Of a DNA stretch of 40,786 bases, positions 28,858 through 34,287 are shown in pieces. The position numbers and the translations under genes are program-made. The notes beneath the pieces are model-generated. The model worked only from the letters and a program-made list of their open reading frames with translations, was not told where the DNA came from and did not search any database. Location: assembly GCA_020428645.1 (NCBI GenBank), contig JAGQMN010000006.1:1-40786 (forward strand). Direction: 5' to 3'. Numbering within the stretch: the stretch's first letter is position 1; the number at the start of each line of letters is the position of its first letter. The stretch is from Patescibacteria group bacterium. GTDB lineage: Bacteria; Patescibacteriota; Minisyncoccia; Phycocordibacterales; UBA1006.

Positions 28858-30441
28858 ATGAATCACAAAAAACAACAACTACATTTTGGATTAGGATTTG
28901 TAACGATTCTCATGGTATTGTTTGGTTGCTTCTCTTCCGCGAATGCACAGGTTTCAGCAACGGTTCGTGAAAACCGATACCTCAATGACACAGGTAACGC
29001 GGCGGAATCACAGCCTGGTATTCTTGATATCTTTACGTTCGAGCTCGCACCAAAAGCACTCCAAACAGTATCTGGTTTTGCAGGACTTGGTTCAACAAGT
29101 ATTTTTGGGAGTTCAAATCCGATTATCTTTAGACAGGTAGGAACATCAATTTTTGATGATGTTGTTGCATACAGCAATGCGGCGATTAAAACTCTGTTTG
29201 TCGGCTACGATAACTCACCAACCTTTACTACCGGTGATCCACTCCTCCAAGTTGATGGAACGGTACAAATTAAAGAACTCGCACATACCGATCCAAGTGG
29301 ATACATGCAAGCATGTATCAATGATTTTGGGCATATAAAGATTTGTAGTGCATTAGTTCGAGTCTTCCAAAAAACTGATATTACATCAATGGATGGCTTC
29401 AAAATTTATTCCAGCACCTTAGGAGACTTTGATGGTGATGGTGACATTGATATTTTTGCCGGTCATTATAATTCTTCTTCTCGGTTATGGAAGAACAATG
29501 GATCTGGAGTCTTTACCGCAGGTTCTGTACCATCTGGTATTGGAACAGCAGTACCATACGATGTTGCCTCCGGAGATGTTGATGGTGACGGCGACCTTGA
29601 TGTGTACTTGGGACAGTATAGTACTGGTACCCCAAACAATTTATTGATTAATGATGGATCAGGTAATTTTACGGTTACCACTATTTCAGGAGACATTGCG
29701 CGAACCAGGGCAGTCGATATGTCAGATTACGACAATGACGGCGATCTTGATATTTATGTAGCGAATTTGGCAGGAGCAAATAAGCTTTACCTAAATAACG
29801 GGTCAGGAAGTTTTACTCCCAAATCCACTCCTGATGCTACTAATCGACCTGGTGGTGTAGTCTTCGGCGACCTTGACAATGACGGCGACCTTGACGGTTA
29901 TGCAACGGTGCTCGGTGATGATTTACAGAACAAGATCCTTGTTAATGATGGTGCGGCTAACTTTACGATCCAGACAATTTCAGGAGATTTGTACCATTCG
30001 CAGCAACCAACCTTGGTTGATGTCGACAATGACGGTGATCTTGATATTTATGTACCCCAAGATTCGACAGTTACTGAACCTAACAAGTTATGGATTAATC
30101 AAACTTCGTCGGGATTTGGTCCTAGTACCATGAGCTTCACTGATGGAAGTTTGCCCTCAGACAGCTACAGTGATTCAATATCTGCTTCGTTTGCTGATCT
30201 TGATGGTGACGGTAATGTAGATATGTACATGCCTACCAATGCTTGGGGTTCCCTTAACAGGTTACGCTATGGAAATGGAGATGGGACCTTTAATGAGACG
30301 TTACTTACTTCAGATAATATCTCGTCTTATATTTCAGAAATTGCTGATTTTGATGGAAACGGTTTCCTCGACATATTCACCTTATCTGTTAATAGCAATG
30401 GAAGTTCAGCAATATTCTTCCAAGTAGAAGAGTACGAGTAG
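28858..30441 (+). CDS. Secreted FG-GAP/VCBS-repeat protein with C-x4-G-x4-C module
   Basis: 527 residues. Signal peptide near 1-31 (HFGLGFVTILMVLFGCFSSA ... NAQ). Residues 90-163 carry the shared module: LLQVDGTVQIKELAHTDPSG then C-x4-G-x4-C at 153-163 (CINDFGHIKIC). Residues 175-520 are seven or so FG-GAP/VCBS-like repeats with DxDxDGxxD calcium loops: DFDGDGDIDIFAGHYNSSSR, DVDGDGDLDVYLGQYSTGTP, DYDNDGDLDIYVANLAGANK, DLDNDGDLDGYA, DVDNDGDLDIYVPQDSTVTE, DLDGDGNVDMYMPTNAW, DFDGNGFLDIF. Such repeats form beta-propellers used in adhesion. Last gene of the operon, closed by a terminator. Confidence 0.85.
   Translation: MNHKKQQLHFGLGFVTILMVLFGCFSSANAQVSATVRENRYLNDTGNAAESQPGILDIFTFELAPKALQTVSGFAGLGSTSIFGSSNPIIFRQVGTSIFDDVVAYSNAAIKTLFVGYDNSPTFTTGDPLLQVDGTVQIKELAHTDPSGYMQACINDFGHIKICSALVRVFQKTDITSMDGFKIYSSTLGDFDGDGDIDIFAGHYNSSSRLWKNNGSGVFTAGSVPSGIGTAVPYDVASGDVDGDGDLDVYLGQYSTGTPNNLLINDGSGNFTVTTISGDIARTRAVDMSDYDNDGDLDIYVANLAGANKLYLNNGSGSFTPKSTPDATNRPGGVVFGDLDNDGDLDGYATVLGDDLQNKILVNDGAANFTIQTISGDLYHSQQPTLVDVDNDGDLDIYVPQDSTVTEPNKLWINQTSSGFGPSTMSFTDGSLPSDSYSDSISASFADLDGDGNVDMYMPTNAWGSLNRLRYGNGDGTFNETLLTSDNISSYISEIADFDGNGFLDIFTLSVNSNGSSAIFFQVEEYE
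29731..30054 (+). repeat. Near-identical 30-nt repeats inside the FG-GAP gene
   Basis: Positions 29731-29760 and 30025-30054 match at 29 of 30 bases, and a partial copy lies at 29875-29897. They encode the DNDGDLDIYV loops. Recent duplication or gene conversion between propeller blades is likely. Confidence 0.7.
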
Positions 30442-30485: not shown

Positions 30486-30572
30486 TTGACAAAATTTTTA
30501 TTTTAATGTTAAGATTAATACGAGATTGCCACCGCGAGTGTTGGCAACAGTTCTAATTTTAAAATTGAAAGC
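30486..30572 (+). promoter_or_regulatory. Promoter and leader of the T9SS-tail protein gene
   Basis: TTGACA (30486-30491), 18-nt spacer, TAAGAT (30510-30515). The roughly 50-nt leader contains a TTGCCA/TGGCAA hairpin (30526-30531 with 30542-30547) and no Shine-Dalgarno. Confidence 0.55.
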
Positions 30573-32186
30573 ATGAAAAAACTACTTTTTTCCGTAATGG
30601 TGCTGTTGCTCGGCTTCATGCAAGCAGCAGCACAAGACATTATTATTAATGAAGAGATCTACTCCCAGAACTTTAATGGTTCAGCAAGAGGTGATTTATA
30701 TAACTTTGATAATGATGGTGATTTTGATCTGGTAACTGGCGTTGACAATACTACCAGTCAACCACAAATCCGTATCTTCGACCTTGGATCAGGGAGCAGT
30801 ACTGTGATTGCCACTGCTAGCGTAAATGATGTCTTTATTAGTGCCGATTTCATCGATACTGATGGCGATGGTGACCTAGATCTTCTGATTGTCAAAAAAT
30901 TGTTTAGCGACCAGTCAGAGATTCTGGTTGCCGAGCAAACAGGGGTTGGTAGTGGCACGTTCAACACACCTGTGTTGATTGAACAGGTGCCGTTGATTGT
31001 GTCTTACGTGGTAATTGTAGATTTCGACAAAGACAACCTAAGGGACGTTATTTTTGCTGCGCATGACCCAGTAAATTCAGATATCCTTTGGATGAAGAAC
31101 ACAGGCTCAGGTTTCTCTGTAGCTAGTCCATTACTTCAGAATTTACCCGAAGAGGTGAATGCTATGTTACCGTTAGAAATTGATGGAACCGGAAATATGG
31201 ATTTCGTTATTTCCATGTCCGATGTCCATACTGCAGTTTACTTGGCGAGTGGTACTACCCTGAGTCAAAGCCAGGTTATCGAAAATTTCGATGCAGATGG
31301 AATTGTGTTTGTTGAGAATATGTTATTTTTAAGCCTTGATCAGCCTGGAAAAATCAGGCGATATCAAAAATCTGGAACCAATTTCGGTGTAGGTCAAGAT
31401 GTCGCTTCATCCTCTGATCCTTATGCACTAGTCATTGCAGATTTCAGTGGAGACGGGTTGTACGACCTTGCATACACAGACCTCGTCTGTGATTGCATGA
31501 GAATTCTCTATCAAAATGGTGCAGGTTCATTCGATCTAGTACACGAAGTACCGATTGGTACTGGTAACTCAACGCCACTGTATTTGTACGCTGCTGATCT
31601 TGATCAGGATAGCCAAAATACGGTTGAAGTGATTGCTCAGGCCTCCGGACACTCCACCATTCAGTTATCAACCCTGTGGTTAGATACTGACGGTGACGGT
31701 GTTCCAAATGTAAATGATACTGATGACGACGACGATGGATATCTCGATGTTGATGAAATCGCGTGTGGATCTGACCCACTTGATGGATCTAGTGTTCCTG
31801 ATGATTTTGATGGAGACTTCATACCTGATTGCGTCGATGATGATGTTGATGGTGATGGGGTTCTGAATGATGATGACGCATGTCCATTTACTCCACTTGG
31901 TACACCAGTTGGTTTGGATGGTTGCCCTGAATTAGGAATTGATGAGTTCGCACTAGCGAGTACATCATTTTACCCAAATCCAGTTACAGATCGTTTGTAT
32001 ATTGATGCCCCTGAAGGTGTATCAATTACTGGTGTTGAAGGATATAACCTACTGGGACAAAAAATCTTAGAAGTGAGTGGTCAACCTGAATCAATTGATT
32101 TTTCTGTGTATCCGGTGGGTATGTATATTGTGAACGTTCTGTTTGATAACGGACATGTATCACAAGGAAGGATAATCAAAAAATAA
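30573..32186 (+). CDS. Secreted repeat protein with TSP3-like region and a T9SS type A-like C-terminal sorting domain
   Basis: 537 residues. Signal peptide near 1-21 (MKKLLFSVMVLLLGFMQAAA). Residues 35-360 hold FG-GAP-like motifs (FDNDGDFDLVTGV, DTDGDGDLDLLIV, DFDKDNLRDVIFA, DFSGDGLYDLAYTD). Residues 370-445 are dense thrombospondin type 3-like calcium loops (DTDGDGVPNVNDTDDDDDGY, DDVDGDGVLNDDDACPF). Residues 464-537 match the type IX secretion C-terminal sorting domain: SFYPNPVTDRLYID, then YNLLGQKILEVSG, SVYPVGMYIVNVLF and a basic end RIIKK. That domain directs proteins across the outer membrane of Bacteroidota. In a CPR-like cell without an outer membrane its role is unclear. Mixed codon use differs from the upstream operon, suggesting transfer. 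Confidence 0.85.
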   Translation: MKKLLFSVMVLLLGFMQAAAQDIIINEEIYSQNFNGSARGDLYNFDNDGDFDLVTGVDNTTSQPQIRIFDLGSGSSTVIATASVNDVFISADFIDTDGDGDLDLLIVKKLFSDQSEILVAEQTGVGSGTFNTPVLIEQVPLIVSYVVIVDFDKDNLRDVIFAAHDPVNSDILWMKNTGSGFSVASPLLQNLPEEVNAMLPLEIDGTGNMDFVISMSDVHTAVYLASGTTLSQSQVIENFDADGIVFVENMLFLSLDQPGKIRRYQKSGTNFGVGQDVASSSDPYALVIADFSGDGLYDLAYTDLVCDCMRILYQNGAGSFDLVHEVPIGTGNSTPLYLYAADLDQDSQNTVEVIAQASGHSTIQLSTLWLDTDGDGVPNVNDTDDDDDGYLDVDEIACGSDPLDGSSVPDDFDGDFIPDCVDDDVDGDGVLNDDDACPFTPLGTPVGLDGCPELGIDEFALASTSFYPNPVTDRLYIDAPEGVSITGVEGYNLLGQKILEVSGQPESIDFSVYPVGMYIVNVLFDNGHVSQGRIIKK

Positions 32187-32290: not shown

Positions 32291-33094
32291 ATGATACGAA
32301 AACCTAAAAAATTGATCGTTGCAAACTGGAAAATGAACGTTACCAAAGAAGAAGAGGCTGAAGGTCTGTTTCTCTCAATAAAGAACGTTGTTAATAAACT
32401 CGAATATACCAAAGTCGTGTGTTGTCCTCCGCATATGTACGTGAATCAGGTGGCACGGCACGTTGACCACAGAAATTACCGCGTTGGTGGACAAGATGCC
32501 TATCCCGAAGAATCTGGTTCACGAACAGGTGAAACCTCAGTACTGATGATGAAGAACGCAGGTGCCGAGTACATCATTCTCGGACATTCTGAACGTCGTC
32601 ACCTTGAAACGAAATCAGATGTGGCGCGTAAGGTAACCGCGGTGCTCGAACACGATATGGTTCCCATTATCTGTGTAGGTGAAGAACAGCGTGATCGCAA
32701 TTGGAAAAAGGCACTGACACAGCAGTTGAAAGATGTGTTCAATAGGGTTCCAAAAAAGAATCCAGAAAATATTATCATCGCATACGAACCGATTTGGGCA
32801 ATTAGTGGAGAAAAGAAAAACCCAGCAACATCAACTGAGTACATGGAGGCACTCGACGTCATCAAGAAAGAACTCAAGAAAATCTTTAAAACGAGCACTG
32901 CAGTTGATAAGATTCGTTTCCTGTATGGCGGTTCACTCGATGATAAAAACATTGAAGAATTCCTTAAAAACGCAGAGGTAGATGGATTTTTGGTTGGTCG
33001 GGTATCACACGATCCTCGGATTTTGATGACCATGTTTAGACTGGTTGAAGATCATATGCAACGCGAAATGTTTCCGATAAAAGAAGAAGAGTAA
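32291..33094 (+). CDS. tpiA: Triosephosphate isomerase
   Basis: 267 residues. LIVANWKMN (8-16) carries the substrate Asn and Lys, GHSERR near 98-103 the catalytic His, AYEPIWAIS near 164-172 the catalytic Glu, and LYGGSLDDKN near 214-223 plus FLVGRVSHDP near 233-242 the phosphate-binding loops. It interconverts dihydroxyacetone phosphate and glyceraldehyde 3-phosphate in glycolysis. The C-terminus is a Glu/Lys tail slightly longer than usual. The canonical G-x-A in the last phosphate loop reads GRVS. It precedes pgk but each gene has its own terminator and promoter. Confidence 0.96.
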   Translation: MIRKPKKLIVANWKMNVTKEEEAEGLFLSIKNVVNKLEYTKVVCCPPHMYVNQVARHVDHRNYRVGGQDAYPEESGSRTGETSVLMMKNAGAEYIILGHSERRHLETKSDVARKVTAVLEHDMVPIICVGEEQRDRNWKKALTQQLKDVFNRVPKKNPENIIIAYEPIWAISGEKKNPATSTEYMEALDVIKKELKKIFKTSTAVDKIRFLYGGSLDDKNIEEFLKNAEVDGFLVGRVSHDPRILMTMFRLVEDHMQREMFPIKEEE

Positions 33095-33114
33095 CACATC
33101 GTGTTGCTTTTTTA
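33089..33114 (+). terminator. Terminator overlapping the tpiA stop
   Basis: GTAACAC (33091-33097) pairs with GTGTTGC (33101-33107), one G-U, then TTTTTT. The stop codon 33092-33094 is in the stem. Confidence 0.8.
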
Positions 33115-33126
33115 TTATGCGAAGAC

Positions 33127-33135
33127 TGTTATACT
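33127..33135 (+). promoter_or_regulatory. Extended -10 of pgk (leaderless)
   Basis: TGT-TATACT (TATACT 33130-33135), 6 nt before ATG 33142. Confidence 0.65.
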
Positions 33136-33141
33136 CAGAGC

Positions 33142-34287
33142 ATGAATACTGTAGTACAACAGGTATTAGATCGATCGATTGAAACCGTTGACGATCTAAA
33201 AGGGAAGCGGGTACTTCTGAGAATTGATGTGAACACGTCACTCGGTGACAATGGAGTTGTTGATCCTGGTGAAGATTGGCGTATCGTAAAGGCGTACCAA
33301 ACGATCGATTACCTCGTTAATCATGGCGCGTGTGTAGTTGTTCTGAGTCACATTGGGAGAAACCCTGATGATTCCTTGAAACCTATCTACGATTATATGA
33401 GCGAATACCGTACTATTGGCTTTATACCAACGTACGACAGCACTATTCTTGAAACGAGTATTACCGGTATGCAACACGGTTCTGTATTGATGCTTGAAAA
33501 TGTTCGTCAGCACCCTGGTGAAGAGGTGAATGATAGTTCATTTCTCAATACCGTAATTGAATTGTGTGATTACTACGTGAACGATGCTTTTTCGGTATCA
33601 CACCGTGAACATGCGAGTGTTTCTGATGTTGCGACACGGTTACCTGCATACTTTGGACTACAATTTTGTGATGAGGTTAAAAATCTGACAAAGACACGCG
33701 AAGCTAACGAGAACACCGTGCTCCTCCTTGGTGGTGCAAAGTTTGATACGAAATTTGATCTCCTCAATCAATTTCTCCCGAAGGTGAGCTACGCACTCGT
33801 TGGTGGGGCGCTCGCGAATGTGTTTTTACGCGAGCGTGGCATTAACATTGGTGCATCATTTGCTGATGATGCTGTTGATATTTCAAGTATGGTTACCAAT
33901 GATAAAATTGTTCTTCCTATTGATGCGGTTGACCAACACGGAGACGTCATTCACATTGACCAGGTTGGGGACGAAGATATGATTCTCGATATTGGACCTG
34001 AAACTGAACAACTCTTTGAAACGATTATTGCACATGCAGATACCATCCTCTGGAATGGACCGATGGGTAAATACGAAGATGGGTACACCGCAGGATCTAT
34101 TGCTGTTGCTGATAGCATTGCAAAATCGGATGCGTATTCAGTAACCGGTGGTGGTGATACCGCAACGGTGATTCTTGAAGAGCACCTCGAAGAGAATTTT
34201 GATTTTATCTCAACGGGTGGGGGAGCGATGCTTGATTTCCTCGTCGAGGGAACACTTCCAGGAATAGACGTAATTATAAACAAATAA
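33142..34287 (+). CDS. pgk: Phosphoglycerate kinase
   Basis: 381 residues, a little shorter than the usual 390-410. KRVLLRIDVNTSLGDNGVVD near 22-41 is the N-domain substrate loop (RxDxN), VLSHIGRNP near 70-78, LENVRQHPGE near 117-126, DAFSVSHREHAS near 149-160, LLLGGAKFDTKFDLL near 195-209, ILWNGPMGKYED near 302-313 and SVTGGGDTATVILEEH near 333-348 for ADP/ATP binding. It makes ATP from 1,3-bisphosphoglycerate. Convergent with rnhA across a palindromic terminator. Confidence 0.95.
   Translation: MNTVVQQVLDRSIETVDDLKGKRVLLRIDVNTSLGDNGVVDPGEDWRIVKAYQTIDYLVNHGACVVVLSHIGRNPDDSLKPIYDYMSEYRTIGFIPTYDSTILETSITGMQHGSVLMLENVRQHPGEEVNDSSFLNTVIELCDYYVNDAFSVSHREHASVSDVATRLPAYFGLQFCDEVKNLTKTREANENTVLLLGGAKFDTKFDLLNQFLPKVSYALVGGALANVFLRERGINIGASFADDAVDISSMVTNDKIVLPIDAVDQHGDVIHIDQVGDEDMILDIGPETEQLFETIIAHADTILWNGPMGKYEDGYTAGSIAVADSIAKSDAYSVTGGGDTATVILEEHLEENFDFISTGGGAMLDFLVEGTLPGIDVIINK

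Follow-up and report, generated by a model that had tools for sequence, protein, structure and literature searches.

The stretch of DNA analysed here (the window; 40,786 nucleotides, one whole contig, C36, of a genome of 0.72 Mb in 39 contigs) encodes an exported protein, P0001, that ends in what resembles a sorting signal of the type IX secretion system (T9SS), and this raises the question why a CPR bacterium should make a protein with such a label. CPR bacteria are tiny, have a single membrane and presumably live on other cells, and, to our knowledge, T9SS export labels have been thought meaningful only in double-membraned Bacteroidota and their relatives. We found no earlier report of T9SS or Por tails in Patescibacteria in the open-access literature. 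One paper that contains both 'Parcubacteria' and 'Por secretion system' places the tails in other lineages that have outer membrane factors.

The tail gene and its C-terminal domain

The N-terminus of P0001, with a Lys-Lys n-region, a hydrophobic core and AAA ahead of a glutamine, reads as a Sec signal peptide, as judged by inspection and by a simple rule-based scan (Table 1). Within the body, the best Pfam stretch for FG-GAP covers residues 95-160 and the Asp-rich TSP3-like part lies at about residues 371-455, whereas the C-terminal domain (CTD) takes up residues 467-537 (71 residues). Full-length fold prediction of P0001 was uninformative (mean pLDDT 37). The TTGACA promoter of the original prediction can be located at 30486-30491, together with a weak -10 hexamer, TAAGAT, at 30510-30515, which together would form a putative promoter. 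No leader RNA structure was found (z 0.70). Given the terminator-like hairpin and T run on its 3' side, P0001 looks like a transcription unit of its own.

Table 1. Features of the tail gene locus (window coordinates) and of the short tail genes that consist of a signal peptide (SP) and a CTD
Feature	Coordinates	Strand	Basis
Cluster of exported proteins P0004, P0003, P0005, P0002, upstream of P0001	25643..30441	+	synteny, Pfam
Sigma70-type promoter-like site upstream of P0001 (putative)	30486..30515	+	sequence reading
SD-less leader of P0001, A/T-rich ahead of the start codon	30523..30572	+	extent inferred from promoter-like site
P0001, FG-GAP/TSP3-like exported protein with T9SS type A C-terminal domain, 537 aa	30573..32186	+	ORF, translation, PF13517, PF18962, TIGR04183
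P0001 signal peptide MKKLLFSVMVLLLGFMQAAA, predicted cut before Gln21 (Q-rule type)	30573..30632	+	sequence
P0001 body: FG-GAP repeats, then Asp-rich TSP3-like stretch	30855..31937	+	Pfam, sequence
P0001 T9SS type A CTD: YPNP ... YNLLGQKI ... VGMYIVNV ... GRIIKK, runs to the stop codon	31971..32183	+	HMMs, model, structure matches
Intrinsic terminator-like hairpin and T run 3' of P0001	32220..32247	+	sequence reading
TIM and PGK genes flanking the tail-gene slot	32291..34287	+	synteny in genus
SP+CTD-only copies	G000:C1:7559-7867 (L031); L033 7565-7906; L054 4708-5016		

The type IX signal pattern that had been read from the end of P0001 is recognised by both HMMs of this domain, neither of which stayed silent: TIGR04183 scores 35.4 bits (E 7.7e-9, cut-off 23) and PF18962 scores 34.0 bits (E 3.6e-8, cut-off 27), both well beyond chance level, and the CTD match in the genome-wide search reaches 37.6 bits. 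Modelling of the C-terminal 171 residues with AlphaFold2, from the single sequence, agrees with this assignment and predicts seven strands in the last 75 residues (model residues 99-170) at pLDDT of about 70-83. The best PDB match of the modelled CTD is 8gl6_D, the CTD of RemA (Z 11.6, rmsd 1.6 A over 73 residues; Foldseek, VIA-align), followed by 8gl8_D from RemZ (Z 10.6), both of which are cargo CTDs solved inside the SprA-PorV translocon of F. johnsoniae. A sequence search of the PDB with P0001 alone gave no match, so that a tail profile was needed; the profile built from the CPR tails alone matches 8glk_D (NucA CTD) at 1.6e-15, and its best matches are likewise SprA-PorV cargo CTDs. The fold as such is a generic Ig/FN3-like sandwich with many structure matches at Z about 8. 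Taken together, the HMM scores, the structure matches and the match of the CPR-tail profile identify the tail, by its sequence and modelled fold, as a T9SS type A CTD.

P-x-P, two glycines and one tyrosine are shared by every one of the 22 CPR tails in the alignment. The motifs of these domains have been reported to specify the fold, with the possible exception of a near-invariant, functionally important lysine near the C-terminus, K1110 in RemZ (Lauber et al., PMC10994853). In the profile alignment, K1110 corresponds to tail position -5, which is lysine or arginine in 13 of the 15 tails of the genus and in 28 of all 38 tails, against 9.9% K+R overall; because the sequences are related to one another, p-values exaggerate this enrichment. 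P0001 itself has arginine, not lysine, at this position, and the second tail of the same genome has lysine. Tails of the same genome do not resemble each other more closely than tails of different genomes do (identity 0.299 vs 0.286, p 0.13) and thus show no sign of tuning to one receptor; receptor-driven homogenisation of the tails inside a genome is not seen.

Distribution and genomic context of the tails

Among the 61 genomes of the order that were searched, PF18962 was detected at E 1e-3 in 17 of the 20 genomes of the same family (16 of them above the cut-off), compared with 10 of 380 in a phylum-wide sample that includes the genome of the window (five above the cut-off; Fisher p about 1e-20). 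Many of the family tails sit on contigs of 111-388 kb. The genome of the window also encodes the second tail mentioned above, in a protein of 102 aa that consists of a signal peptide and a CTD and is encoded directly behind two genes which we take, from their sequences, to be infC and rplT. Genes for such SP+CTD-only proteins of 102-113 aa are found behind infC-rplT in three species (G000, G005 and G009), and this syntenic retention suggests that selection for keeping these genes, if any, concerns the CTD itself. The tails are a family-wide trait with two syntenic loci, not one transferred gene. Outside this family, four tails are present on contigs C1 and C5 of a distant CPR genome (G277; 700 kb, 99% complete, 5 contigs), which probably acquired them independently. 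A genome of another family of the same order (G053) has ten PF18962 tails, some in tandem and with Q-rule neighbours, on five short contigs (L040, L041, L042, L067 and L068) that are possibly contamination.

The slot occupied by P0001 recurs in the genus. In at least eight of its species a CTD gene is found next to TIM, and in G000, G003, G005, G007, G008, G009 and G010 the tail gene is directly upstream of TIM, with a gene for an IS200-like Y1 transposase (PF01797; L055 2726-3418) between the two in G007. The full-length TIM copies near tail genes in G003, G005, G006, G008, G009 and G010 are 78-87% identical at the amino acid level. Homologues of some or all of the members of the upstream cluster are found beside the tail gene in G003, G005, G006, G008 and G010, the same members being rearranged in G006. 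In several of these slots the tail gene is located behind homologues of P0003-P0005 and of P0002, an FG-GAP repeat protein in which Pfam detects no CTD, and, where the contig is long enough, is followed by PGK, RNase H, RecA and FtsK.

The end of P0002 is 96-99% identical in DNA among the window (28858-30441), G007 (L055 1-797) and G009 (L053 1-112); in the latter two the shared stretch borders the end of a contig, a place where an assembly may be misleading. The TIM genes of these species reach only 79-82% identity, the DNA identity ends at the P0002 stop codon, and the tail gene behind the near-identical P0002 shows no DNA-level match between the window and G007 or G009, which indicates that genes at the slot have been exchanged and replaced. 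The identity of P0002 would reflect either a recent exchange or an assembly break at shared sequence. Among the TIM-slot tail genes, the tails are 31% identical (18% after shuffling) and the bodies 30% (26% after shuffling); the tail is thus better preserved than the body.

RecA, encoded three kb from P0001, is closest to proteins of named Ca. Nomurabacteria, Kaiserbacteria, Adlerbacteria and Paceibacterota (66-74% identity). The genome is thus assigned by sequence to Paceibacteria (CPR), as had been suspected at the outset, and its size agrees with this placement. The source is a MAG with 2.78% estimated contamination, and all genomes compared here are MAGs, so that Bacteroidota contamination or a chimeric contig, either of which would have undone the original prediction, has to be considered. 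Against this explanation, the tail gene is internal on a contig that also bears NusA, RecA, FtsK, TIM and PGK, other MAGs of the genus show this arrangement too, and tails are found on long contigs as well. Gene order, namely the CTD gene by TIM across the genus and the SP+CTD-only gene behind infC-rplT, excludes contamination; we consider the contig not to be chimeric and assign this explanation a negligible probability.

Missing T9SS machinery and Bacteroidota-like gene features

Components of the T9SS were searched for at a threshold of E 1e-3 in 12 tail-bearing CPR genomes, eight of which are counted as at least 90% complete, with a Rubricoccaceae MAG that has 62 tails (G074) as the positive control. 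No homologue was found in any of the 12 genomes for SprA (1616 bits in the control), for PorV (7 matches in the control, the best with 325 bits) or for Omp85/BamA (10 matches in the control, and seven reference genomes also positive). PorU-type Peptidase_C25 was detected in none of 61 genomes, and no control genome scored either. Peptidase_M28, which we take to be the family of the animal-type glutaminyl cyclase, was likewise found in none of the 12 genomes, with 6 matches in the control and all 14 reference genomes positive. The control was reached via L083, the RecA contig of Rubricoccaceae MAG Ww533, which is found among Patescibacteria matches to the RecA of the window (59%) and may be mis-binned. 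Groundwater cells of CPR size that lack an outer membrane have been seen by imaging to be attached to Gram-negative hosts (PMC7906910). Given these images and the absence of SprA, PorV and Omp85, P0001 is a member of the CTD family, yet its own cell has no recognisable T9SS of which it could be a cargo. The original reading of a type IX tail in a CPR genome without outer membrane machinery is supported.

In several other respects the tail genes resemble those of Bacteroidota. Glutamine is found at position +1, directly after the signal peptide, in 20 of the 24 tail proteins of the family (83%); it is found there in 17 of 94 other exported or membrane-like proteins of the same loci and in 3 of 70 in named Paceibacteria, these two rates being rough because the non-tail sets were defined by a simple rule and include membrane proteins. 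In P. gingivalis, 83-86% of T9SS components and cargo have glutamine at +1, and phages of this bacterium have likewise adopted the Q-rule (PMC10653852). The leaders of the tail genes are A-rich, and a CTTAAAA-like core is present in 11 of 29 of them, against 16 of 294 leaders of other genes (p 2e-6); P0001 itself was not scored as bearing it. A cytophagal cargo gene has a similar A-rich leader, and several tail genes have promoter words of the TTGACA/TATAAT type upstream. The leader of P0001 does lack an SD, as first noted, and so do those of most of its neighbours, an SD-like word being absent in 21 of the 24 genes of the window; the distinctive leader trait is the A-rich CTTAAAA type of many tail genes rather than the missing SD. 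TATAAT or TATACT words are located 6-9 nt before the ATG of many genes (upstream of 16409, 16758, 21781, 22902, 32291 and 33142), a pattern that widespread leaderless transcription in this genome would produce.

The codon use of P0001, which had been described as unlike that of its neighbours, is within their range. Its z of 2.2 relative to the rest of the window is not exceptional, since ordinary neighbours reach, for example, 4.3 (FAD-oxidase), 4.0 (CCA-transferase) and 2.6 (RecA), and its GC (0.42) and GC3 (0.34) are the values of the upstream secreted gene. A foreign codon use is thus rejected; in both composition and codon use, P0001 matches the CPR genome.

Origin and possible use of the tails

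From what is known of these families, we infer that the tail genes came from Bacteroidota and that their products are exported by Sec. As observed today, the genes are native to the CPR family and retained at syntenic positions, and the searches of 12 genomes revealed neither a translocon nor a carrier nor Omp85. A viral carrier was rejected as no relatives of P0001 or P0002 were found in viral contigs, and a plasmid carrier was rejected as every PLSDB record with a similar tail is named for a Bacteroidota (Cytophagales) genus. Gene transfer from Bacteroidota to Patescibacteria, including one case in Paceibacteria, is on record (PMC12455944). With regard to the original proposal of a transfer from Bacteroidota or a tail re-used for another anchoring route, the signs of Bacteroidota origin stand (the CTD family, the Q-rule signal peptides and the leaders), the codon argument falls, and transfer, re-use in anchoring and host-directed use all come into consideration.

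A use at a Bacteroidota partner, with the CTD being read by the T9SS of the partner, is in our tentative opinion the likeliest single reading. According to this scenario, T9SS cargo genes of Bacteroidota would have been captured and kept by a monoderm CPR lineage that exports the tail proteins across its single membrane by its own Sec system; the proteins would work at the contact with the partner, whose PorV and SprA might still read the CTD as a T9SS label once the protein, or the protein that is nearly CTD alone, is in the partner's periplasm, and the CTD would be retained for this reason. The CPR cell might thereby display its proteins on the partner cell or jam the partner's exporter. We favour this reading because the terminus relevant to the T9SS is kept as in Bacteroidota, because SP+CTD-only proteins are kept in place, and because phages, which copied the Q-rule, set a precedent for export labels being taken over by parasites of Bacteroidota (PMC10653852). 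The HMM scores, the matches to SprA-PorV cargo, the basic residue at -5, the lack of SprA, PorV and Omp85, the retention in the family (17 of 20 genomes vs 10 of 380) and glutamine at +1 in 20 of 24 proteins speak for it as well, as do the images of CPR-size cells attached to Gram-negative hosts (PMC7906910). On the other side, a CTD from one Bacteroidota species does not always work in another (PMC11285876), P0001 has arginine instead of lysine at -5, and the tails within a genome are not homogenised. CPR cells are also thought to sit outside the host envelope, and their proteins' entry into the host periplasm is hypothetical. The more specific proposal that a monoderm CPR symbiont addresses secreted proteins to the T9SS of its Bacteroidota host by a host-type leader, a host-type Q signal peptide and a host-type CTD, either as cargo or as CTD-only plugs of the host translocon, is bolder and in our view somewhat less likely.

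Other explanations have to be weighed against use at a partner. The CTD, as a stable Ig-like sandwich, might have been re-used in the CPR envelope as an adhesion, oligomerisation or anchor module of Sec-exported surface proteins without any T9SS. The lack of SprA and PorV, the generic nature of the fold, the existence of SP+CTD-only proteins and the adhesin-like FG-GAP/TSP3 bodies are all compatible with such a role, which nevertheless seems somewhat unlikely to us: a new role should relax the residues relevant to the T9SS, yet the tails retain YPNP, LG, G-Y and the basic motif at the C-terminus to much the same degree as Bacteroidota cargo does, and a co-conserved anchoring partner was not identified. 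Alternatively, the tails could be baggage of gene turnover, with cargo genes being recaptured into permissive slots and replaced before a CTD that is functionless in CPR decays. This would fit the lack of DNA similarity among slot tail genes even where P0002 is nearly identical (G007 and G009 vs the window), the bodies at about 30% identity while TIM is at 78-87%, the Y1 transposase next to the G007 tail gene, and the status of Bacteroidota as recorded donors of genes to Patescibacteria, including a Paceibacteria (PMC12455944). We consider this reading to be rather unlikely, given that the SP+CTD-only gene, which has little besides the CTD, keeps its position in three species, that P0001 already has the composition and codon use of its genome, and that all nine tail genes beside or near TIM in members of the genus keep an intact CTD. 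Finally, tails that are numerous and intact could be served by a divergent, undetected T9SS-like apparatus in these cells, since the control-backed searches covered SprA, PorV and Omp85 only and the PorU search had no positive control. The 12 genomes gave no homologue of SprA, PorV or Omp85 at E 1e-3, and this result and the imaged CPR-size cells without an outer membrane (PMC7906910) make such an apparatus very improbable.

A CPR family that keeps T9SS labels without the machine offers a concrete clue to the partners of uncultivated cells, and use at a Bacteroidota partner gives a testable idea of how a CPR cell could place its proteins on a host. The annotation 'T9SS sorting domain' alone does not prove a T9SS.

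The closest known counterparts of P0001 are the T9SS type A cargo CTDs of Flavobacterium johnsoniae (RemA, RemZ, NucA and FspA; 8gl6, 8gl8, 8glk and 8glj), to which its tail is similar in HMM assignment, modelled fold, motifs and extreme C-terminal position, the signal peptide with glutamine at +1 and the cargo-like body being shared too. In contrast to F. johnsoniae cargo, the CPR tails belong to a monoderm Paceibacteria lineage that lacks SprA, PorV and Omp85, and some copies are nearly CTD alone. With the Q-rule signal peptides of Bacteroidetes (PMC5837995, PMC10653852) the family shares glutamine right after the signal peptide, in 83% of its tail proteins, the count being that of tail proteins and not of the whole secretome; unlike in the Bacteroidetes Q-rule systems, the 12 CPR genomes have no Peptidase_M28 protein. 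The recorded transfers (PMC12455944) involve the same donor and recipient phyla, the Paceibacteria case included. In contrast to that report, the text of which never mentions 'secretion', the present case concerns an entire family that has retained a set of labelled cargo genes.
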